Source of the DNA: Terriglobia bacterium
GTDB taxonomy: Bacteria; Acidobacteriota; Terriglobia; Bryobacterales; Bryobacteraceae
Length of the DNA stretch: 37,749 nt
Assembly: GCA_025350105.1 (NCBI GenBank)
Contig: JANXYJ010000099.1
Location: 1-37,749 of the forward strand
Direction: 5' to 3'
Part shown: positions 4,582 through 29,305 of the stretch, piece after piece
Layout: every line of letters starts with the position of its first letter
Numbering within the stretch: the first letter of the stretch is position 1
Notes under the pieces: model-generated
Seen by the model: the letters and a program-made list of their open reading frames with translations, nothing else
Told to the model about the DNA's origin: nothing
The model's database searches: none
Program-made: the position numbers and the translations under genes

Positions 4582-5493
4582 ATGAAATACACCCCAGGTG
4601 GTGAAAGCCAGGATATTGAAGATCGCCGCGATGAAGGCGGCGGTGGTGGTGGTTATGAACAAGGCGGCCTGGGTGGAGGAATGGGCGGCATCGGGCTAGG
4701 CGGGCGGCACATCGGCATCGGCGGATTGCTGGTGCTGGGCTTGCTCAGCCTGGTATTTAAACGCGATCTGCTTTCACCGTTTATCGGCGGCGGGGGAGGC
4801 GATAGTGCCTACGACAACCCGGTTGCCGCCAGCGCGCCCAACCCCGCACGCACGCAAGCCGAGCAGCCCACCGTGCAATTCGTCTCTTTCGTCATCGACG
4901 ATGTACAGAAGTATTGGGAGCAAACCATGCCCACGCTAGGCAAGCAATATCGCCACGCCAAGCTGGTTCTGTTTCGCGATCAAACCAACTCCGGCTGCGG
5001 CGCCGCGCAGGAAGCCAGCGGGCCGTTTTATTGCCCCGAGGACGAAAAAGTGTACATCGACCTGGGTTTTTATGATGAGCTGAAACAGCGCTTTGGCGCT
5101 CCGGGGCAGTTCGCTCAAGCGTACGTGTTGGCGCATGAAGTGGGCCATCATATTCAAAAGATTTTGGGGATTGAAGCGCAGGTCCGCCAGCTGCAGCAAC
5201 GCAATCCCGCGAACGAAAATCCCTTGTCCGTTCGCCTCGAATTGCAGGCCGATTGTTTCGCTGGCATGTGGGGCCACTCGGCTTCCCAGCGCGGATTGCT
5301 CGAAACCGGCGACGTGGAAAGCGGCCTGGGTGCAGCCGCCGCCGTTGGGGACGACCGCATCGCCCGCATGTCCGGCGTGCGCGCCAATCCTGAAAAATTC
5401 ACCCACGGCTCCGCCGCGCAGCGGACTACGTGGTTTAAACGCGGCCTGGATACCGGTCAACTGCAAAACTGCGATACGTTTGGCGGACAGTAG
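4582..5493 (+). CDS. ypfJ: YpfJ/KPN_02809-family neutral zinc metallopeptidase
   Basis: The 303-residue protein belongs to the Zn_peptidase family (PF04228). Residues 1-40 are charged and glycine-rich (MKYTPGGES, then DIEDRRDEGGG and glycine runs), followed by one membrane segment at about 45-60 (IGIGGLLVLGLLSLVF). A periplasmic domain follows, with QYRHAKLVLFRDQT, a conserved CGAAQEASGPFYCP pair of cysteines, and the zinc-binding HEVGHHIQ near residue 185. The downstream ELQADCFAGMWG supplies the expected third ligand region. Length and motif order match the family closely. Its physiological substrate is unknown. Translation may be controlled by the inverted repeat that overlaps its Shine-Dalgarno. 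Confidence 0.92.
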   Translation: MKYTPGGESQDIEDRRDEGGGGGGYEQGGLGGGMGGIGLGGRHIGIGGLLVLGLLSLVFKRDLLSPFIGGGGGDSAYDNPVAASAPNPARTQAEQPTVQFVSFVIDDVQKYWEQTMPTLGKQYRHAKLVLFRDQTNSGCGAAQEASGPFYCPEDEKVYIDLGFYDELKQRFGAPGQFAQAYVLAHEVGHHIQKILGIEAQVRQLQQRNPANENPLSVRLELQADCFAGMWGHSASQRGLLETGDVESGLGAAAAVGDDRIARMSGVRANPEKFTHGSAAQRTTWFKRGLDTGQLQNCDTFGGQ

Positions 5494-5941
5494 GAGGCTT
5501 ACACGCCCCGCACGTCAGACCCCGCCGCCGCAGCGGCCGCAGCAAGCTTGACACCATTCGTCACGAACGCTCGCCAGCGCGGTCTTTGCTTCACCCACAC
5601 CAGCGCGGCTGCAAGCTGTACCGCGTCACCGGAACGCAAGGTAAGGCGATCCAACTGTGCCAGCGTCAGCTCGCGCACTTGGCGTGGTTTCCCCAAAACC
5701 AATCCTGCTGCGTGAGCTCTGACCGAAGAGCTAAATCTACAGTTCGGGGGCCTCTTAACCTAAACCCAGGTCTTTGTCCACTGAATACGCATCCGCTGCA
5801 GTCGCGACGTAATGCTCGGTGACGATGAAACCGTACTTTCGGCGTACGCGGAGTCAACGCCCACCGAACCCCGTCTGGTAAAGTAAGAAACAGTCGAACG
5901 TCCTGGCTAGCCTATTACCGAGTGCAGGCCGTTCTAAGTCT
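5494..5941. other. 448 bp interval before the T6SS block: decayed DNA, no intact gene
   Basis: The left half holds a minus-strand PIN-domain remnant. In the right half a minus-strand open stretch (5758-5853) could code KYGFIVTEHYVATAADAYSV but has no start codon and is unassigned; it may be another fragment. No convincing promoter or Shine-Dalgarno for tssK was recognised. Confidence 0.5.
5499..5759 (-). pseudogene. VapC-like PIN-domain toxin remnant (C-terminal part only)
   Basis: The minus-strand frame contains LTLRSGDAVQLAAALVW, then RAFVTNGVKLAAAAAAAGSDV, which matches the C-terminal end of PIN-domain VapC toxins (the DALQLAAAL helix and the FVTxDxxL strand). Reading upstream, the frame runs through ELTLAQLDRL and AHAAGLVLGKPRQ to a TAG at 5760-5762. 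There is no N-terminal segment with the first catalytic Asp and no adjacent VapB antitoxin in the next few hundred bases. The remaining frame has only a TTG as possible start. The likely interpretation is a truncated, inactive toxin gene. Confidence 0.65.
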
Positions 5942-8051: not shown

Positions 8052-11000
8052 ACCTGTATTGGGCGGCGGGCGGTTCGTTTCTCTTCTCTATTTTGGTTGG
8101 CATATTTGGTGGCCGCGCGCTGCACCTGCAGGGCGCGTCGTTCTGGTTCTTCTTCGGCTTGATGACCGTGCTGGGTCTGGCCGCCGCGGCGCTGCTCGCC
8201 TATTTTCAGCGGCGCAACGAACAAGCGCGGGGAGTAATTCCGGGTGGTAACGGTTCGAGCGAAACCAATCCGTTGATTCGCGACGCCAACGCGCGTTTGG
8301 CCCAATCGCGCGGCGGCGCGGGCATCGCCAACCTGCCCATGATTTTTGTGATCGGCGATCGCGGAACGGCCAAGACCAGCACCATCCTGAATTCAGGGCT
8401 GGAGCCCGAACTCCTGGCTGGCCAAATTTATCAGGAAAATGTCGTCACCCCGACGCGCACTGCCAACATTTTTTTTGCGCGCAACACGGTGTTCGTGGAA
8501 GCTGGTGGCGCGTTGATGGGCAATCCGCAATCCTGGTCCAGTTTGGTTTCGCGGTTGCAACCGGGGCGTTTGAAATCCTTGGCCGGAGGCGGGCAAGCTC
8601 CCCGCGGCGTGCTGCTGTGTTTTGATCTGGAAACCTTCACGCGCCCCGGCGCAACCGACGCCATTGCGAATGCCGCGCGTTATCTGCAAGCGCGCTTGGG
8701 AGAAATTTCACAGATTCTCGGCGTTAGTTTTCCCGTATACGTCTTGTTCACGCGCGCTGACCGCCTGCCGTTTTTCGCCGAATACGTGCGCAACTTGAGC
8801 CAGGAAGAAGCCGGACAAGTGGTGGGCGTAACCCTCCCCATGCAGCCGGCCTCCGCCTCCGGCATCTACGCCGAAGAGGCTTCCAAGCGTTTGACGGCGG
8901 CGTTTAGTCAGATGTGTTATTCCTTTTCCGATCAACGCCTGCGTTTGTTGCCGCGCGAAACCGATGCCAGCAAACTCCCGCCCGCCTACGAATTTCCCCG
9001 CGAATTCCGCAAGCTGCGCAATTCTCTGGTGCAGTTTTTGGTGGACGTGGGCCGGCCCAGCCAGATTCAGGTGAGTCCGTTCTTGCGCGGGTTCTATTTC
9101 ACGGGTGTGCGCCCGGTGGTTGTATCGGACGCGCTGGCAGTGCCGGTTTCGCCAACTCAACCCCAAGCAGAACAATCGGGCGCAACGGGAATGTTTCGCG
9201 CGGGCATGTCACGGCCGGAAAGCGAAGCTTCACAACGCGCCGCGCGTATGCAGAACGTCGGCGGCGGTTCGCGCAAAGTTCCGCAGTGGCTGTTTCTGGG
9301 GCATCTGTTCAACGACGTGATTTTGGCCGACGAAGACGGGCGCGCCGCCAGCGGTGCCAGCGTGAAAACCAGCATGCTGAAGCGCGTGCTGTTCGCCACG
9401 GCCGCGGCCGCGTGTTTGCTGTACGCGATTCTGGCGACGGTCTCCTTCTTCGGCAATAAAGCGTTGGAAGACAAAGCGCTGGCCGCCGCACAGGCGCTGG
9501 CCGGGACAACCGTTTCAAACGCCATCCCCAGTGAAGACGCCCTTCGTAAATTGGAAGACTTGCGCAAGCCGCTGGCGGAGCTCACCGATTACGAATACAA
9601 CGGCAAGCCGCTTAGTTTGCGCTGGGGCTTGTACACGGGCAGTGGGATTCTTCCGCAAGTGCGCCGGGCCTATTACACGCGTTTCGCGCAATTGCTTTTC
9701 GGCGGAACCCAAGCCGGTTTGCTTTCGTACTTGCAGCGCGTGCCAGCGTCCCCTGCACCCAATGACGATTATGGCTTCGGCTACGATTCGCTGAAAGCTT
9801 ATCTGCTGACCACTTCCGAATGGAAGCGTTCTTCTGACACGGGCCTGCAATCGTTTCTAGGCCAGAAACTCTTTTCGCGCTGGTCCAGTCAGCGTGAAAA
9901 CGATATGGGCCAAGCCCGGCTGACGCTGGCCAAACAGCAGTTCGATTTCTACGCGCAGGATTTGCCCCACGGCAATCCGTATCCGAGCGACGCCGACAGC
10001 GGATCGGTGGATCGTTCGCGTTCCTATCTGTCGAAGTTTTCAGGCTTTCAACGGGTTTATCAGTATCTGCTTTCCGAAGCCGCGAAGAAAAGCCCGCCGG
10101 TTAGTTTTAACGATAAGTTTCCCGGCAGCGCGGCCGCCGTCACCAGCACCGTTCCGGTGCAGTGGGCTTTCACCAGGGACGGCTGGAAGTTCATGCAGGA
10201 CCAGATCAAACGCCAGAATTTTGGGGGTGAACAGTGGGTCCTAGGCGCTTATCAAAATCAAAGCGTCGACCGCGCCGCCATGGAAAAAGGAATCATGGAT
10301 GCCTACGCGCACGATTACGTCGAACAATGGCGCGCCGTGCTGCGGCGCAGCAATGTCAATCGTTACGCCGGTTATCAGGATGCCTCGCGCAAGTTGACTT
10401 TGCTCACCGGCAGCGCCGCGCCGCTGCTGGCTTTAATGTGGTGGACTTCGCAGAACACCGGCGTGGACGCACCACCTGGTGTTGCCGATAAATTCAAGGC
10501 CGTGCAGACGGTTGTCCCGCCTTCCGCCGCGCAGCAGTACATCGTCGCGCCCAATCAAAACTACAACGGCGGCTTGTTGAATCTGCAGCAATCGGTGGAC
10601 CGGGCGGCCGCCAAAGATCCTAATGGCGATCAAATGGTCCGCGATACGGCCCAGACCGCAAGACTAAACGCGCGGCAGCTTTCCTCCACCTTTCCTCCCG
10701 ATCCTGACGGCCACATCGATCAACGCACGGAAGAGCTTTTGCTGCAGCCCATCTCCTATTTAGACGGCCTGATTGGCGGCGACCTGCGGGCCGGCGGCGC
10801 GTCTTTTTGTTCTGCGTTCAATTCGCTCACCACGAAGTTTCCCTTCAATCCCACCGCGCAAGCCGAAGTAACGCTGGACGAATTGGGCGGATTCTTACGC
10901 CCGCAATCGGGCCGCCTGTGGACCTTCTACGACAGCTCGCTGAAAAGCGTGATGCAGTGCCCCAACGGCGAATGTTCGCCACAGGGCTCACAGCCAGTGA

Positions 11001-21588: not shown

Positions 21589-21648
21589 GAGTTTCTATTT
21601 TAGCTTTGGGAACGGATGGTTTATGATTGGGCAAGAAGGCGTCTAAAT

Positions 21649-22548
21649 ATGAAGAGACCATTTGCGCTGGTTGGTTTGGCGGCCGCGGTGTTTTCCCCCT
21701 TGTTTTCGGCGGGACCGTCGTATGAAGCTTCCATTGCCGAGTGGCGCGCCGTGCGCGAAGCCAAACTGAAAGCCGATGATGGCTGGCTGACCGTGGTGGG
21801 CTTGCACTGGTTGAAGGAAGGCGCGAACCGGGTGGGCTCGGGCGCTGGGATGGAAGTTCCATTACCGAAATCGGCGCCAGCACAAGCGGGAGTGATAACG
21901 CTGAAGAACGGTGTGGCGCGGTTTGCTCCTGCTAAAAGTGCGAACATCACTTTGAACAACGCGGCGCTTTCTCAAGAGGTCCAGTTGAAGCCGGATGTCA
22001 CTCCGCAGTATGATCGCCTGCGGGCCGGGCGCGTGACATTCTTTGTCATCAAAAGGGAAGAAAAATTTGGCGTACGGGTGAAAGACAACGACAGCGAAGC
22101 GCGGCGAAACTTCGCGGGTTTACGGTGGTATCCGGTTGACACAGGCTGGAAAGTGCAGGCCAAATATACGCCGTTCGATCAGCCACATAAAGTTACATTC
22201 GACACGCTGGCGGGGTTGAAGGAACAGGACGAAAGCCCCGGCTATGTGACGTTTGAGCATGGCGGCAAGCAGTATCGGTTTGAGCCGGTTGTCGACGGGA
22301 ACGAGTTTTGGTTTGTGATGCGGGATCAAACCAGCGGCAAGTCTACTTATGCAGCGTCGCGTTTTTTGTACGCACCTTTGCCCAAGGACGGCGTGAAGAA
22401 GAGCGGCGTCATCGAAATCGATTTCAACAAGGCGGAGAACCCACCCTGCGTATTTACTGATTTTGCGACGTGTCCGCTGCCTCCGCCGCAGAATCGTTTG
22501 GCCGTGGCGGTAACGGCGGGCGAACAGATGTACGGCCGGCAACATTAA
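21649..22548 (+). CDS. DUF1684 secreted protein
   Basis: The 299-residue protein has a signal peptide (RPFALVGLAAAVFSPLFSAGPSYE) and then the DUF1684 pattern: EWRAVREAKLKADDGWLTVVGLHWLKEGANRVGS, RLRAGRVTFFVIKREEKFGVRVKDNDSEARRNFAGLRWYPVD, and the C-terminal IEIDFNKAENPPCVFTDFATCPLPPPQNRLAVAV in short pieces. The family is common in Acidobacteria and Bacteroidetes; its function is unknown. Start at ATG 21649 rather than 21616, since the signal peptide begins there. A hairpin spans its stop codon. Confidence 0.85.
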   Translation: MKRPFALVGLAAAVFSPLFSAGPSYEASIAEWRAVREAKLKADDGWLTVVGLHWLKEGANRVGSGAGMEVPLPKSAPAQAGVITLKNGVARFAPAKSANITLNNAALSQEVQLKPDVTPQYDRLRAGRVTFFVIKREEKFGVRVKDNDSEARRNFAGLRWYPVDTGWKVQAKYTPFDQPHKVTFDTLAGLKEQDESPGYVTFEHGGKQYRFEPVVDGNEFWFVMRDQTSGKSTYAASRFLYAPLPKDGVKKSGVIEIDFNKAENPPCVFTDFATCPLPPPQNRLAVAVTAGEQMYGRQH

Positions 22549-22705: not shown

Positions 22706-24169
22706 ATGCTTCTGAAACTGAACCACGTGAAAAGCGAGGCGGCCGGGATCACGCAGGAAGTGACCGCTGCGCTGTACGTGATGCTGGAAGAAGGCCAAAT
22801 CACGCAGGAGCAATACGGGCGGCTGCGGGTGCGGCTGGATTGGATTCAATATAAAGAAAATTTTCGTGACCCTGTGGCGGCGGCTCCGGCGGATGCCGAG
22901 CCGGGGGAAAACGCGGGCGGCAACGTAGACCTCTATTTGGATACGCGGCAAATCGCGCCAGGATCACCAACGTTGCGCGCGGATCTATTGAAGGCGTTGG
23001 CAAGAGCCACCGGCGCAGGGGCGGACGATCGTTTTTACCTGGAAGAGTTCAAGACGTTTCGCTCCAGCATTGCCTGGCATTTTAACGGCCTGTATTGGCG
23101 GCGTCTGGACGATTGGGAACGTTCGACCGGACGGAGTTATGAGACCGCGCTGCCCGGCGGGCAATCCGACGGAAATTTGCCGGAAGCGATTGCCGATAGC
23201 GTGGGCGATTTCTGGACACTGTTACAGGACTTAGACAAGAAGCGCCAGTTGCCTTCTGAAATTTTTGTGCTGGAGATTGGCGTGGGCTCCGGCTTGCGGT
23301 GCGGGCGGTGGCTGGACCGGTTTAAGGCGATCGATCAACATCGCGGCACCCATTATTATCAGAAGCTGAGAGTACTGTTGGGCGATTATTCGCTGGCGAC
23401 GCTGGATATGTCGCGGCCCAACGTGAAGGATCACATTGATCTGTGCAGCTTTATGGTGCTGGATGCGCTGAATCCTTTAAAAACGCTCGCGTTTTTGCGG
23501 CATAAAGTGATGTACGTGCAAACCACCAACATGTACGACAATTTGCCGGACGAAGAAATTCTGCGCCGCGATGGACATTTTTACTTAGTGCAATCACGCT
23601 GCTTCATTCCGCTGGAAGAAGCGCAACGGCTGTGCGCGCAGTACGGTATGGGCTTGGACAAGATTCGGCCCACGATGGGCCGGATGCTGGAAGGGCGCGC
23701 CGATTTTTTGGGGCATGAACCGGAGGATGAAGCGCGGGGCATGACGTTCTGGAAGGGCATTTGGTCGGCAATTCGCTTAGAAGAACGTCTGGTGCGTTTC
23801 GAGAATTTGCCGGATTCACCGCTGCCCGCGGCGCTGGATATCGTGAAGTTGGAGGAGATCCTGCAAGGGACTCCGGACGATTTGCGTTTTCATTTGAACT
23901 CGGGCGCTTTGGAAAGTTTCACCAACACGCTGCCACTGCTGCATCCGCGTGGTTACCTGCAGGTGCAGGATATTTTCGTCACCAACCTGAATGCCTATTC
24001 GATGGGTTTTTATGGGCCGGGAAAATTGGACGGCTCGATTGTGAACTGGGTGAACGGGGCGCTGATGAAAGGCGTGGCGGAACGGGTGGGTTACGATGTG
24101 CACTTTGCGCCGTTCCGGTATCGCAAGGGATCGAAGACGTCCATTCTGTATACGTCGCCCCGTGAATAA
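22706..24169 (+). CDS. MidA-like (NDUFAF7/Methyltransf_28) SAM-dependent methyltransferase
   Basis: The 487-residue protein has a class I SAM-binding motif VLEIGVGSGL (about 188-197). After it, the order resembles the MidA/NDUFAF7 family (PF02636): DYSLATLDMSRPNVKDHI (strand 2 region), YVQTTNMYDNLPDEEIL (like NEFFDALP), and HPRGYLQVQDIFVTN (like the GxLLxxDYG segment). The first 180 residues are helical and lack the clear GDFYTSPE motif of canonical MidA, so this is a distant relative. MidA/NDUFAF7 methylates an arginine in a complex I subunit; the target here is unknown. The next gene (core MetE) starts 20 bases downstream, so it is in one transcript with methionine-cycle genes. Confidence 0.6.
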   Translation: MLLKLNHVKSEAAGITQEVTAALYVMLEEGQITQEQYGRLRVRLDWIQYKENFRDPVAAAPADAEPGENAGGNVDLYLDTRQIAPGSPTLRADLLKALARATGAGADDRFYLEEFKTFRSSIAWHFNGLYWRRLDDWERSTGRSYETALPGGQSDGNLPEAIADSVGDFWTLLQDLDKKRQLPSEIFVLEIGVGSGLRCGRWLDRFKAIDQHRGTHYYQKLRVLLGDYSLATLDMSRPNVKDHIDLCSFMVLDALNPLKTLAFLRHKVMYVQTTNMYDNLPDEEILRRDGHFYLVQSRCFIPLEEAQRLCAQYGMGLDKIRPTMGRMLEGRADFLGHEPEDEARGMTFWKGIWSAIRLEERLVRFENLPDSPLPAALDIVKLEEILQGTPDDLRFHLNSGALESFTNTLPLLHPRGYLQVQDIFVTNLNAYSMGFYGPGKLDGSIVNWVNGALMKGVAERVGYDVHFAPFRYRKGSKTSILYTSPRE

Positions 24170-24189
24170 ACAAACGGAGTAAATCATTT

Positions 24190-25191
24190 ATGTCTTTGCC
24201 TATTCTTCCCACGACAATTGTTGGCAGCTACTCGATGCCGGGCTGGCTGGAGCGTTTGAAGACCGAATATTTCGCGCGGCGGATTCGCAGGCAGGATTTA
24301 GAAGAAGCCTACGACGTGGTGGCGAAAGCGGCGATTAAAGATCAGGAAGTGGCGGGGCTGGACATCGTCACCGACGGCGAAGCGCAGCGCGACAACATGG
24401 TGGACTACTTTGTGGAGCGCATGGCCGGGGTGGAAATCGACCGCACGTCGAAAAAATATTACTACGACTTTTATACGAGTACGGTAAATGCCAAGCTGCC
24501 GGTGGCGCCGCTTGGGTTGGTGGGCGATTTCAAGCTACTGAGTGCGTTTACCGATCGCGCGACCAAGATTTGCATCACCGGTCCGCATCATCTGGCAAAA
24601 AAGATCGGCAACAAATTCTACAAAAGCGAAGGCGAATTCGCGGCGGAGCTGGCGCAGGTGTTGAATCCGGAATTGAAGGCGCTGGCGGCGGCAGGCGCGC
24701 AGTATATTCAAATCGACGAGCCGTCGTACTCTGGCTTCCCGGAAGATTTGCCCTGGGCGATTGAAGCGCTGAACATCATGACCGAGGGCGTGGATGCGAA
24801 ATTGGCGCTTCACATCTGTTACGGCAATCGTTACGGCAAACCGTCGTGGGAAGGCAGCTACGAGTATCTGTTTCCGGAAATCACCAAAGCGAAAGTGCAG
24901 CAGTTGACCTTGGAATTTGCACGGCGCGGCGGGCAGGATTTGAATCTTTTCAAAAAAGACGCACATCCGTTTGAATTGGGTGTAGGCGTGATCGATGTCA
25001 AGACGCCGGAGATTGAAACGCCGGAGATGGTGGCCGGACACATCCGCAAAGCGTTGGAAGTGATGCCCGCCGAGCGTTTGTTTGTGCTGCCCGATTGTGG
25101 CTGCTTCCATCTGCAGCGCGAGATTGCATTCGCCAAACTGCAGGCAATGGTGGAAGGCGCGAAGATGGTCAGAAAAGAATTGGGGAAGTAA
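24190..25191 (+). CDS. Core MetE: cobalamin-independent methionine synthase catalytic domain protein
   Basis: The 333-residue protein corresponds to the C-terminal catalytic half of MetE with no N-terminal domain. It begins PTTIVGSYSMPGWL and contains QIDEPSY, the zinc ligands His208 and Cys210 (LHICYGN), Glu242 and Cys303 (PDCGC), and GVGVIDVKTPE near residue 264-275. The zinc site is intact, so a methyl transfer to a thiol such as homocysteine is expected. Core MetE proteins use donors other than polyglutamyl methyl-THF in several lineages. Here a MetF-type reductase follows three bases later, so methyl-THF is a plausible upstream donor, perhaps via a carrier. GGAG precedes the ATG. Confidence 0.88.
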   Translation: MSLPILPTTIVGSYSMPGWLERLKTEYFARRIRRQDLEEAYDVVAKAAIKDQEVAGLDIVTDGEAQRDNMVDYFVERMAGVEIDRTSKKYYYDFYTSTVNAKLPVAPLGLVGDFKLLSAFTDRATKICITGPHHLAKKIGNKFYKSEGEFAAELAQVLNPELKALAAAGAQYIQIDEPSYSGFPEDLPWAIEALNIMTEGVDAKLALHICYGNRYGKPSWEGSYEYLFPEITKAKVQQLTLEFARRGGQDLNLFKKDAHPFELGVGVIDVKTPEIETPEMVAGHIRKALEVMPAERLFVLPDCGCFHLQREIAFAKLQAMVEGAKMVRKELGK

Positions 25192-25194
25192 ACG

Positions 25195-26715
25195 ATGGCC
25201 ACAAATCCCATTCGCGAATCACTGAAAAGCGGCAAGTTTTTCTACATGGTGGAGATGGTGGCTTCCGCCAATACGCGCGAAGCGCAGCTGATGCAGACCG
25301 CCTCCGAAATCGCAGGTGTTACTGAAATCACCGCGGGCAGTATCACCAGTTACGCCGGTGGTTCGACGGGGCACGATCCGGTGCGCATTGGGACCGCCGT
25401 GCGGGCACGCGGACTGACGGTGAACATCCACCTGACGTGCGTGAACAAAGACCGGCTAACCATTCACAATACGTTACAGGATCTGGCCGCGCTGGGCATT
25501 GAAAACGTTTTTGCAATTTCCGGCGATTACCCAAAAGGCACGGACCCGGCATCGACCATTTTCGATCTGGACTCCGTGCAGTTGGTGGAGATGATCAATG
25601 AGGTCCGCCAGCACGCCAAGATTCCGTTTCTGATTTCCGGGGCGGTGTCGCCGTTCAAGTACGTGGAGGCCGATTGCGCCTATCAATATTTGAAGCTGGA
25701 GAAGAAAATCGCGGCGGGCCTGGATTACGCCATCACGCAGTTGGGCTATGATTCGCGCAAGTTTCGCGAGTTGAAGCGCTATTTGGATGAGCGCGGTCTT
25801 AAAACGCCGGTGCTGGGAAATGTTTACATCCTGAACGCGCGTGCGGCCGAGAAGATGTCGAAGGGTGAGCCTCCCGGATGCTGGGTGGCGAAGGAACTGC
25901 TGGAGCGCATTCAAGAGGAAACCAAGTCCGCCGATAGAGGCATGGCGGCCCGGTTGGAACGCGCCGCGAAGATGGTGGCGATTGTGCGCGGCCTGGGTTA
26001 TGCGGGCGCATATTTGGGCGGCGATAGCAAGGCAGAGCGGTTGAAGTGGGTGATCAAACGGAGTGAGGAACTCGCGCCAAAGTGGGAAGAGCTGGCGGAG
26101 GAAATCAGCTACGCGCCGAAGGGCGGGTTCTATTATTACGAAACCCCGAAGGCTCCACCGAAGCCACGTGGATTTGCATTAGCGGCCAGCGAGACCATGC
26201 ACTCGCTTCTCTTCGCCAAGACCGAGCCGATGAAGAGCCTGGTGACGGGCGTGGTGAAAACGGTGGATCACTTCCCGGCGGTGGCGCATGCGCTGGAGCG
26301 TGTGGAATACGCGTTTAAATCGCCCGCGTATGGCTGCCAGGCTTGCGGGAATTGCGTGCTGCCGGAAATGGAATATGTGTGCCCGCAGACGTGCCCCAAA
26401 GGCATGCGCAATGGGCCTTGCGGCGGGACGTTAATGGGGCGCTGCGAAGTGCACGATATGCCGTGCATCTGGGTGAGCGTGTATGATCGGGCCAAAGCCA
26501 ACAATCATATCGATCAACTGAAGACGTTCATTCCGGCGCCGAATCGGGCGTTGAAGGGGACCAGTTCGTGGATTAATTACTTTTTGGATCGCGACGTGCG
26601 GCCGGGGCATCCGGGCGCGTTGATTCAGATTGAGCCGCTGCCGGCGAGTTTGGCCGGCGTATTGGCCGAGCCGGAAACCGTAACCAGCGGAACTGCCGCC
26701 ACCAACAGTAAATGA
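25195..26715 (+). CDS. Methylenetetrahydrofolate reductase fused to a MetV-like cysteine-rich domain
   Basis: The 506-residue protein begins with a MetF-like TIM barrel (residues 1-300; FFYMVEMVASAN, NIHLTCVNKDR, GIENVFAISGDYPKG, FLISGAVSPFKYVEADCAYQYLKLEKKIAAGLDYAITQLGYD in pieces), followed by the MTHFR_C domain. The latter has clustered cysteines, C381, C384, C387, C396, C400 and C409, in GCQACGNCVLPE and CPQTCPKGMRNGPCGG, as in acetogen MetV, where it binds zinc and contacts MetF. In those organisms the two are separate; here they are one chain. The reaction is reduction of methylene-THF to methyl-THF. The C-terminus (about 470-506) is Ala/Thr-rich. It is the last gene of the operon. Confidence 0.85.
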   Translation: MATNPIRESLKSGKFFYMVEMVASANTREAQLMQTASEIAGVTEITAGSITSYAGGSTGHDPVRIGTAVRARGLTVNIHLTCVNKDRLTIHNTLQDLAALGIENVFAISGDYPKGTDPASTIFDLDSVQLVEMINEVRQHAKIPFLISGAVSPFKYVEADCAYQYLKLEKKIAAGLDYAITQLGYDSRKFRELKRYLDERGLKTPVLGNVYILNARAAEKMSKGEPPGCWVAKELLERIQEETKSADRGMAARLERAAKMVAIVRGLGYAGAYLGGDSKAERLKWVIKRSEELAPKWEELAEEISYAPKGGFYYYETPKAPPKPRGFALAASETMHSLLFAKTEPMKSLVTGVVKTVDHFPAVAHALERVEYAFKSPAYGCQACGNCVLPEMEYVCPQTCPKGMRNGPCGGTLMGRCEVHDMPCIWVSVYDRAKANNHIDQLKTFIPAPNRALKGTSSWINYFLDRDVRPGHPGALIQIEPLPASLAGVLAEPETVTSGTAATNSK

Positions 26716-27223: not shown

Positions 27224-29305
27224 ATGAAGATGAAATTGTTTTTTGCGGGCTTCCTATTCGCCGCCAGCGTTTTAGCGCAGACTGTGCAGCAGGCTGAGGC
27301 GGGCCGCACGCTTTATCAAGCGCGCTGTTCGATGTGCCATGCTCCGGATCTGGGCGGAAATGAAGCGCCGCAGTTGGCCGGGTCGAACTTCATGGCGGCG
27401 TGGGGCACACGGTCGGCGCGGGAACTGGTCACGCTGATTCAATCGTCGATGCCTCCGGCCAATGCGGGAACGCTGGGTGAGGAAAATTCGGTGAACGTAG
27501 CCGCGTTCATTTTGGCCGCCAATGGCACGACGCCGGGTACGCAGGCTTTGAATGTGGCGTCTGCTTTTACGGTTCGCAGCGTGGCAAACGGCACTCCGGC
27601 AATTGCGCTGCAAGCAGGCGGAGCAATCACAACCGCCACGGGGGCATCGGCCGCGAAGGGGCTTACGGTAACCGGCGAAGTGAAGAACTACGCGCCGGTG
27701 ACGGATGCGATGTTGAAGAATCCCGATCCCGGCGATTGGCTGATGATCCGGCGCAATTATCAGGCGTGGAGCTATAGCCCGCTGACGCAGGTGACCAACA
27801 CCAACGTAAAAGATCTGCAATTGGTTTGGACCTGGGCGATGAACGAAGGCGGTGCGAACGAGCCTACGCCGATCGTCCACAACGGCACGATGTTTCTGGC
27901 CAACACGGCGAATATTGTTCAAGCACTGGATGCGCGCAGCGGCGAATTGATTTGGGAAAATCGCATTGGGCCCGCCATTTCCGGGGGTTTGGGAGCAATT
28001 CGCAGTCTGGGTTTGTATGGCGATAAAGTTTACCTGGCAACCACAGACGAACATCTGGTGGCGCTGGATGCACGCACGGGCAAGCTGGTGTGGAACACGC
28101 AGATTGCCGATGCGGCGAAGGGTTACAGCAACACCAGCGGGCCTATCATCATCAATGGAAAAGTGATTCAGGGCATGGGCGGCTGCGATCGCTACAAGGA
28201 AACCGGATGTTATATCAGCGCCTACGATGCGCAGACCGGCAAGCAACTTTGGAAGTTTGAAACAGTGGCGCGGGTGGGCACTCCGGCTGGTGAGACGTGG
28301 GGCACGCTGCCGAATTTGCTGCGCGCCGGCGGCGATACGTGGATCACCGGCAGCTACGATCCGCAACTAAATTTGACGTACTGGGGTGTGGCTCAGGCGA
28401 AGCCGTGGATGCGGGCGATTCGCGGAACCAATGCGGCCGCGTTGTATACGACGTCAACGGTGGCGCTGAATCCGGACGATGGGAAATTGGTTTGGTATTA
28501 CCAGCACACGCCCGGCGAAAGCCTGGATCTGGACGTGGTGTATGAACGCGTGCTGATCGATTCCGGCAATCAGAATTTGCTGTTTACGGTGGGGAAAGAC
28601 GGCGTTTTATGGAAGCTGGACCGCAAGGACGGCAAGTTTCTAGATTACAAAGAAACGCTGTTCCAGAACGTGTTCGATAGCATCGATAAGAAAACCGGCG
28701 CGGTGCATTATCGCAATGAAATCGTTGAGCAAAAGCCCGAGGAGTGGGTGCAGTCGTGCCCTTCCACCGAGGGCGGCCACAACTGGCAGGCCATGAGCTA
28801 CCATCCGGCGAGCGGACAGCTGATTATTCCTTTAAGCCAAAGCTGCATGGAAATGTTTGGCAGGAAAACGGAAGCGAAAGAAGGCTCCGGTGGCACCTCC
28901 GCCAACCGGCGATTTTTTGAAATGCCGGGGACCAACGGCAACGTGGGCAAGCTGGCGGCCTACGACATCAAGACCATGAAGGAGACTTGGAAGCTGGAGC
29001 AGCGCGCGCCGTTTCTCACGTCTGTGCTCTCCACCGCCGGTGGCGTGGCGTTCGTTGGCGATTTGGATCGGGTCTTCAAAGCTGTGGATGTGAAGACCGG
29101 CGTCATTTTGTGGCAAACGCGATTAGCGACTTCGGTGCAGGGCTTTCCGGTATCGTTTAGTGTGGGTGGCAAGCAGTACATCGCTGTATCGGCAGGTATC
29201 GGTGGAGGCAGTCCGCGGCAGGTGCCGGGGACGATTGTGGGCGACGTGCGGCATCCTGATCACGGCAATGCGCTGTATGTGTTTGCGCTGCCGGAAAGAA
29301 AATAA
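27224..29305 (+). CDS. PQQ-dependent dehydrogenase with N-terminal cytochrome c domain
   Basis: The 693-residue protein has a signal peptide ([17 protein letters not shown]) and a cytochrome c domain with CSMCH (35-39). An eight-bladed quinoprotein propeller follows from about residue 170, with repeats such as [25 protein letters not shown] and [20 protein letters not shown] (the Asp of the active site). The PQQ-stacking Glu segment (GxEYGVRG in MDH) is altered to [17 protein letters not shown], and no vicinal Cys pair is seen, so substrate specificity cannot be predicted. It should oxidise an alcohol or sugar in the periplasm and pass electrons through its own heme. The SRPBCC gene begins two bases after its stop. 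Confidence 0.88.

Follow-up and report, generated by a model that had tools for sequence, protein, structure and literature searches.

A methyltransferase-fold protein and a core MetE as a near-inseparable gene pair in soil bacteria

The 37,749-nucleotide stretch analysed here (contig JANXYJ010000099.1 of assembly GCA_025350105.1, from a Terriglobia bacterium of the Bryobacteraceae; the whole stretch is called the window below) carries a cassette of three genes, of which two, coding for a core MetE and for a protein with a methyltransferase fold distantly resembling MidA, form a near-inseparable pair in soil bacteria of at least two phyla. In many hosts this pair occurs together with aryl-demethylating enzymes, which points to an undescribed, B12-free form of one-carbon handling. 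The reading we prefer, with a probability of roughly 0.4, is that the cassette is a B12-independent two-protein methionine synthase working on the 5-methyl-tetrahydrofolate (5-methyl-THF) pool of aryl-O-demethylating bacteria. The cassette genes, with open reading frame (ORF) numbers used throughout, are:

22706-24169, + strand: ORF1, MidA-fold protein, 487 amino acids (aa); an N-terminal part of its own of about 110 residues, then a MidA-like class I methyltransferase domain (model residues 111-487)
24190-25191, + strand: ORF2, core MetE, 333 aa; zinc ligands H208, C210, E242 and C303 and homocysteine-binding S13, E64 and D176 intact; pterin-stacking Trp replaced (K138)
25195-26715, + strand: ORF3, MetF::MetV fusion, 506 aa; PF02219 methylene-THF reductase (MTHFR) barrel at residues 6-245, C-terminal eight-cysteine PF12225 domain at residues 361-450

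The gaps between them are 20 and 3 bases, all three genes being on the + strand, so the tight packing described in an earlier, sequence-only reading of this DNA is borne out by the ORF coordinates. That reading, which also placed the genes in a methyl-transfer context, is partly supported as a whole; the context itself finds support in the neighbouring genes described below.

Linkage across genomes

A scan of the genome collection with short peptide patterns from the ORF1 alignment, which is not exhaustive, gave 54 loci with the MidA-like protein. By record title these are mostly Acidobacteriota, together with 15 Rokubacteria or Rokuibacteriota and one Acidimicrobiia, and the named records with the cassette are mostly metagenome-assembled genomes (MAGs) of Bryobacterales/Bryobacteraceae and other Acidobacteriota. 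One record, L093 (CALQCC020000049.1), is titled as a Bordetella parapertussis MAG; its coordinates match those of G015, a genome of the window's genus, and it is apparently a mislabelled MAG. The core MetE is the next gene in 53 of the 54 loci, the exception being L120, where the contig stops inside ORF1; among the 53 are two loci (L077 and L111) in which MetE is truncated by the contig end. The two genes are at most 20 bases apart in 45 of 54 measured pairs. Linkage of the MidA-like protein and the core MetE is thus far above chance, and the adjacency that the sequence-only reading had taken to be meaningful, and had made dependent on its conservation in related genomes, is indeed conserved.

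The third gene is less constant. Of the 51 loci in which MetE is complete, 36 have MetF::MetV directly after it (37 of 52 when G060 is added, which leaves 15 without it), and the gap between the two genes is at most 20 bases in 33 of 38 cases. Neighbour counts refer to these 52 loci, with clusters built by codon-scored ORF calling in GC-rich DNA. The ORF1 alignment covers the 50 of 54 loci with near-full ORF1 plus the window and G060, the MetE alignment the 51 with complete MetE plus the window, and the comparisons of MetF::MetV conservation and of distances 31 loci.

The same picture emerges from 61 related genomes, a set that overlaps the first (ten loci are apparently common to both). The full ORF1 protein is present in 12 of them, G009 having one further partial match at 29% identity, and in all 12 the same MetE lies directly beside it, 66-74% identical outside the window's own. 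MetF::MetV is found in ten of the 12 holders; two in-frame stops interrupt the G015 match towards its end, and that of G009 is cut off at the contig edge. Searching in the reverse direction, all 12 MetE that are at least 66% identical adjoin a MidA-like gene, and the other MetE matches listed at E<=1e-30 among the relatives are at most 42% identical. Across an Acidobacteriota phylum sample, the MidA-like protein was seen at E<=1e-20 in two of 396 genomes (among the genomes listed, with four first-look candidates scored), and it had no match on plasmids. Pairwise distances over the 31 loci are correlated for all cassette pairs (r 0.81 for ORF1 and MetE, 0.83 for ORF1 and MetF::MetV, 0.71 for MetE and MetF::MetV), and, being similar, these values show joint inheritance and not contact.

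Two of the window's genes flank the cassette. Upstream, at 21616-22548, is a DUF1684 protein (PF07920), which does not recur among the other clustered loci; downstream is a gene given here as context, its membership of the cassette not being shown:

27224-29305, + strand: PQQ-dependent alcohol dehydrogenase family protein (385.9 bits, under the TIGR03075 cut-off of 480)

Genes resembling PQQ-dependent alcohol dehydrogenase also lie close to the cassette in L023, L080 and L107.

The three cassette proteins

At E<=1 ORF1 has no match in Pfam, PF02636 included, or in NCBIfam, and sequence searches of the PDB gave no credible relative (best E 1.5 with the single sequence and 0.44 with a profile). 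Its AlphaFold2 model, built from a 52-sequence alignment, has a mean pLDDT of 89.3 and a pTM of 0.86 and supersedes an earlier model from 12 sequences (pLDDT 74). The five PDB chains ranked highest by Foldseek are 5zu0 and 5ztz (titled MidA), 4g67 (COG1565) and two chains of 1zkd (a putative protein), which we take to be of the MidA/COG1565 family. VIA-align against 1zkd, 5zu0, 5ztz, 4g67 and 4f3n gave Z scores of 18.0-19.0 over 273-289 aligned residues at 10-11% identity, mainly covering model residues 111-487 and barely testing residues 1-110. Other class I methyltransferases come close behind (Z up to 18.3, over 188-200 residues), and hhalign of the MidA-like family against 19 true MidA (those aligned out of 25 fetched loci) gave a probability of 93.9 and E 1.6e-7. 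Since these other methyltransferases score nearly as well, it is coverage and hhalign that carry the MidA label, whereas the fold class is secure. The description of ORF1 in the sequence-only reading as a distant MidA/NDUFAF7-type S-adenosylmethionine (SAM) methyltransferase was therefore right as regards the fold, and a SAM-type fold, whose absence it had named as fatal, is present. Kinship with MesX (DUF1852) was rejected, as hhalign against one MesX sequence gave a probability of 0.5 of 100.

Class I methyltransferases bind SAM through a glycine-rich loop and an acidic residue after strand 2. Residues E190, G192, G194 and D227 are invariant in the MidA-like protein (52/52) and, in the hhalign alignment, fall on the glycine-rich motif and acidic residue of true MidA, D227 standing opposite the conserved Glu E129; this makes SAM binding by the protein plausible. 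The Glu of the NE..DA motif, invariant in 19/19 true MidA, is missing: hhalign places a gap there, and V, M or T follows the conserved Asn in 52/52 sequences. Because this Glu is missing, ORF1 is unlikely to have kept true MidA function. The protein thus has the fold and an alignable motif region in common with MidA/NDUFAF7 (PF02636, COG1565), and differs from it in its identity of only about 10%, the additional 110 N-terminal residues, the lost Glu, the lack of a PF02636 match and the bond to MetE. No true MidA (PF02636) was found in the window's genome; PF02636 matches occur in 71 of 149 genomes of the Acidobacteriota phylum.

ORF2 is matched by PF01717 over residues 6-325 (156.7 bits), and a PF08267 match (32.9 bits, cut-off 27) at residues 124-269 falls on the same barrel and not on a second one. 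The NCBIfam matches of ORF2 and ORF3 all lie under their curated cut-offs, the best model for ORF2 being PRK04326 (303 bits against 406). H208, C210, E242 and C303 align with H641, C643, E665 and C726 of Escherichia coli MetE, and all seven zinc and homocysteine residues (H, C, E, C; S, E, D) are invariant in 52/52 cassette MetE, as expected of the stand-alone catalytic domain with intact zinc ligands that had been read from the window. The closest PDB match is MesD (3rpd, 210 bits, against 135 for MetE). A quick, midpoint-rooted tree of 31 sequences unites the cassette MetE (SH-aLRT 89) and places them on the same side as MesD and other core paralogs, apart from MetE and split MetE (SH-aLRT 95). 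With its lone C-terminal barrel and its zinc and homocysteine residues, the cassette MetE looks like a Mes-type core methionine synthase, as judged from sequence.

Two known arrangements bear comparison. MesD requires a partner, MesX, and does not need MetF (Price et al. 2021, PMC7857596). Both systems have a lone MetE barrel with intact zinc and homocysteine residues and lacking the pterin Trp, an adjacent dedicated partner of unknown chemistry, and aerobic hosts (for the cassette, as suggested by nearby dioxygenase and PQQ-enzyme genes). However, the cassette MetE is about 35% identical to MesD, where a member of that family would show about 55% or more and an adjacent DUF1852 gene; its partner has a MidA fold instead of DUF1852, and MetF::MetV is attached to it, whereas MesD does without MetF. 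In split MetE, as seen in Natrinema (L130), the C-terminal half is likewise a core MetE whose partner is encoded next to it on the upstream side, and PRK04326 as the best NCBIfam model of ORF2 is a further resemblance, but the cassette partner is not a MetE N-terminal half, the split enzymes carry the pterin Trp (5/5 examined), and they fall on the other side of the tree.

ORF3 has both parts of a MetVF-type methylene-THF reductase, the MTHFR barrel (PF02219, 94.9 bits) and the eight-cysteine domain (PF12225, 86.9 bits), in agreement with the MetF barrel joined to a MetV cysteine cluster that was noticed at the outset, and each of the eight cysteines is kept in 30 of 31 MetF::MetV. The acetogen MetVF has the same two components (PMC8760232), whereas here they form one chain, in organisms with aromatic-catabolic genes. 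A fusion of this kind is not new in itself, as Pfam already describes PF12225 as the C-terminal domain of MTHFR. In L108, two matches to the Acido-Lenti-1 RNA (RF01687), in opposite orientation, are located at the 3' end of the MetF::MetV gene (9901-9946, - strand, and 10037-10082, + strand).

Demethylases, folate enzymes and other methionine synthases

A gene near the pair in L083 scores as LigM, the THF-dependent vanillate/3-O-methylgallate O-demethylase (766 bits against a curated cut-off of 580), and eight loci have a relative of it close to the pair, with 55-100% identity to the copy in L087. Genome-wide, LigM exceeds the cut-off in 13 of the 61 relatives but in 0 of 14 control genomes. 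With shared ancestry ignored in each test, the cassette is present in 12/13 LigM-positive against 0/48 LigM-negative relatives (Fisher p 7e-12), in 11/12 against 0/11 within the genus (p 1e-5) and in 10/11 against 0/35 among genomes at least 90% complete (p 3e-9). Put the other way, all 12 related holders have LigM, that of the window's genome being on other contigs than the cassette, as do 21 of 39 further holder genomes (21 of the 24 that are not Rokubacteria). This co-occurrence, together with the folate one-carbon genes described below, is the strongest clue to function, and it came to light through genomes other than the window's.

Other aromatic genes are also found in the vicinity. Protocatechuate 3,4-dioxygenase genes are present in L080, L090 and L023, and the edge of L115 has a partial match; no LigM match was found in the genomes of L080 and L090. 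On plasmid pUSP2 of Aminobacter sp. MSH1 (L125:5998-7023), a core MetE of 36% identity, with the annotation uroporphyrinogen decarboxylase family, stands in an apparent operon with extradiol dioxygenase, citryl-CoA lyase, CoA-transferase and TRAP transporter genes, and in the window's genome a paralog with 38% identity to the cassette MetE (L132:7339-8406, contig C187) is 1.2 kb away from a homogentisate 1,2-dioxygenase gene, hmgA. Six loci (L078 at 4795-5889, L081, L085, L086, L094 and L095) have a second, distant core MetE immediately upstream of the gene for the MidA-fold protein; that of L078 is nearest to PRK06520, under the cut-off, and keeps the zinc and homocysteine residues. A PRK06520 protein over the cut-off is close to LigM at L144:5287-6387.

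Genes of folate one-carbon metabolism recur as well. Near the cassette, 12 of 52 loci encode formate-THF ligase, counting one fragment at a locus edge and two copies that are only 45-48% alike, and a PurU gene comes immediately after MetF::MetV in L084 and L090. The 15 loci without MetF::MetV have LigM nearby in seven cases and another MetF in six (both in L086, neither in L100, L101 and L102); among the stand-alone MetF are two weak MTHFR matches (25-26 bits, cut-off 24), a strong one in L107 and a fragment at the contig edge in L081. LigM is nearby in 7/15 loci without MetF::MetV against 1/37 with it (p 3e-4, shared ancestry ignored and the loci partly of one clade). Taken together, 49 of 52 loci have MetF::MetV, another MetF or LigM near the pair, that is, an enzyme expected to make or use 5-methyl-THF. 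A lone lipoyl domain and E1 dehydrogenase genes are near the cassette in L084 (6148-8516), L090, L115 and L023, no E2 being recognised within the loci, and an aceE-like E1 is near it in two Rokubacteria loci, L100 and L102.

In Sphingobium SYK-6, ligM, metF and the formyl-THF synthetase gene ligH share one operon (PMC6888825). Cassette holders may have this association of O-demethylase, MetF and formate-THF ligase in common with it, but differ in the added MidA-fold/MetE pair, in the fusion of MetF to the MetV domain and, in the window's genome, in the location of LigM on other contigs. The cassette also resembles the metF/purU branch of chloromethane users, where both genes are essential (PMC3621897); relative to that branch, the MidA-fold/MetE pair is a new element.

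Whether holders possess another methionine synthase differs between groups. The window's genome (4.7 Mb, 96.5% complete) has no MetH activation domain, the search having been for that domain and not for a MetH without it, and its four PF01717 matches are all of core size (open frames of 341-388 aa). The activation domain is absent from 7/12 related holders against 4/49 non-holders (p 4e-4, ancestry ignored) and, among genomes at least 90% complete, from 5/10 against 1/36 (p 0.001). It is absent or under the cut-off in 17 of the 39 other holders, including all nine genomes of L078, L081, L082, L083, L085, L086, L087, L094 and L095. This absence fits a B12-free replacement of MetH. The holder G473, of which the completeness is not established, has no MetH match, no LigM and a single PF01717 protein, namely that of the cassette.

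Holder genomes have between one and 24 PF01717 proteins (41 genomes examined; the count omits the Rokubacteria holders G476, G479 and G488, for which MetH comes from a separate MetH search). The expansion is strong in Rokubacteria, for example with 24 matches in G475 (L105) and 21 each in G469 (L099) and G474 (L104); these core-MetE-like proteins suggest a large family of transferases for methyl or alkyl groups that is still uncharacterised. Among the 15 Rokubacteria holders, eight have a strong MetH match and five a split MetE, and in G468 and G472 neither the one nor the other is clearly present. The split enzymes were read in G466, G467, G480 and G482, two of which have Ala in the E665 zinc-ligand column, perhaps through an alignment slip; that of G471 is known from a pair of neighbouring matches alone.

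Function of the cassette

Under the reading that we prefer, the core MetE would be a zinc/homocysteine barrel that is active only together with its MidA-fold partner. The partner would take the place of the N-terminal MetE half, or of MesX in MesD systems, by bringing or activating the methyl donor. LigM, through aryl-O-demethylation, or MetF and MetF::MetV would fill the 5-methyl-THF pool, which the pair would relieve through methionine synthesis, while MetF::MetV and formate-THF ligase or PurU would handle the remaining one-carbon units. In favour of this reading are the linkage, the invariant zinc and homocysteine residues, the commoner absence of the MetH activation domain in holders, the co-occurrence with LigM, the folate enzymes near the pair in 49 of 52 loci, MesD as best PDB match with its own need of a partner, and the SYK-6 operon. 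The linkage, the fold, the catalytic residues, the loss of the pterin Trp and, in Acidobacteriota, the co-occurrence with LigM are established; that the two proteins make up one enzyme, that methionine is its product and that the methyl group comes from the methyl-THF pool is what we infer.

Several observations weigh against this reading. First, and as its chief weakness, folate binding by the MidA-fold partner is not known, and the MetE barrel itself does not offer an obvious site. The pterin stacks on Trp539 in Thermotoga maritima MetE (PMC539065), which by our alignment corresponds to W561 of E. coli. This Trp, which marks folate-type and split MetE, is kept in 6/6 such enzymes (E. coli MetE, the Natrinema split MetE and four Rokubacteria split MetE) and is Thr in two MesD; in the cassette MetE it is Arg in 51/52 and Lys in 1/52, and at the position of T. 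maritima Arg493 all 15 cassette enzymes inspected have Asp. With both residues replaced, methyl-THF is unlikely to be bound as in MetE, and a MetE-like folate site in the cassette enzyme is improbable. Second, the window's genome has three further PF01717 core proteins with the same zinc and homocysteine residues, 5/12 related holders do have MetH, and 13/15 Rokubacteria holders have MetH or split MetE, so in these last the cassette is not the only synthase and would have an additional or conditional task. The sequence-only reading had regarded a full MetH or MetE elsewhere in the genome as damaging; on this point the window's genome and seven of the 12 relatives, lacking the MetH activation domain, speak for it, whereas the three other core proteins and the Rokubacteria speak against it. 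Third, LigM is found in 0/15 Rokubacteria holders, and the co-occurrence tests take no account of ancestry. Finally, the distance correlation of the MidA-like protein with MetE (0.81) is not above that with MetF::MetV (0.83), and among SAM, cobalamin and THF riboswitches none was found in 19 sources (8 + 11), the absence of the SAM and cobalamin types being the unfavourable one.

A bolder version, that the pair constitutes a fifth kind of core methionine synthase, is rather doubtful. Here a B12-free MetE barrel devoid of a folate site would receive its donor through the MidA-fold protein, so that lignin methoxy carbon might reach methionine by a hitherto undescribed chemistry, either straight from the aryl ether or by way of LigM and methyl-THF.

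The chief rival of the two-protein synthase, which we nonetheless consider unlikely, is that the pair is a catabolic demethylase, with an aryl methyl ether or a similar compound as methyl donor and a thiol or THF as acceptor. Thiolates and THF both serve as methyl acceptors in general chemistry. MetF::MetV would then oxidise methyl-THF, and PurU or formate-THF ligase would release formate, as in the chloromethane or LigM pathways. The near-perfect co-occurrence with LigM among the relatives is as expected under such a role, as are PurU straight after MetF::MetV (L084, L090), the 12 loci with formate-THF ligase and the essentiality of metF and purU in chloromethane users (PMC3621897). So are the protocatechuate 3,4-dioxygenase genes of three loci, two of them in genomes without a LigM match, the MetE-like paralogs in aromatic operons (that with extradiol dioxygenase on pUSP2) and near hmgA, and the fact that most Rokubacteria holders have MetH or split MetE besides the cassette. 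But the homocysteine and zinc residues are invariant, and a THF-directed demethylase would have no need of them. Furthermore, in the seven loci with LigM near the pair and no MetF::MetV (L086 having another MetF), a demethylase would mean, in most cases, two methyl producers and no adjacent consumer, and the commoner absence of MetH in holders is left unexplained.

Less likely still is a role of the MidA-like protein as a plain SAM-dependent methyltransferase acting on a substrate of its own, with the core MetE and MetF::MetV only regenerating the methyl group of SAM for it. This would agree with the MidA fold and with the invariant E190, G192, G194 and D227, the last opposite E129 of true MidA. 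Yet a MetE of the cassette type was never seen without the MidA-like gene among the 61 relatives, a stronger bond than SAM supply needs; no MetK or SahH was recognised in the recurrent neighbour clusters inspected (some unannotated, and no dedicated search made); and the invariant Glu of MidA is lost. That the protein is a true MidA methylating a complex I arginine, its linkage to MetE being incidental, can hardly be right: MidA is the closest fold and the window's genome has no PF02636 protein, but ORF1 has no PF02636 match at E<=1, lacks the NE..DA Glu and is linked to MetE in 53/54 loci.

We found no paper on this cassette among open-licence PMC papers, and the present account gives a first description of the MidA-like protein, which Pfam and NCBIfam models do not recognise. 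The methyl source of core MetE enzymes is an open question, the chemistry of MesX being unknown in PMC7857596. A second, unrelated and obligate-looking partner with a recognisable methyltransferase fold makes this question testable with three small genes in E. coli. The link to LigM ties the enzyme to the recycling of lignin methoxyl groups in soil Acidobacteriota, organisms known mostly from metagenomes, and the cassette might be what allows some of them to do without MetH.

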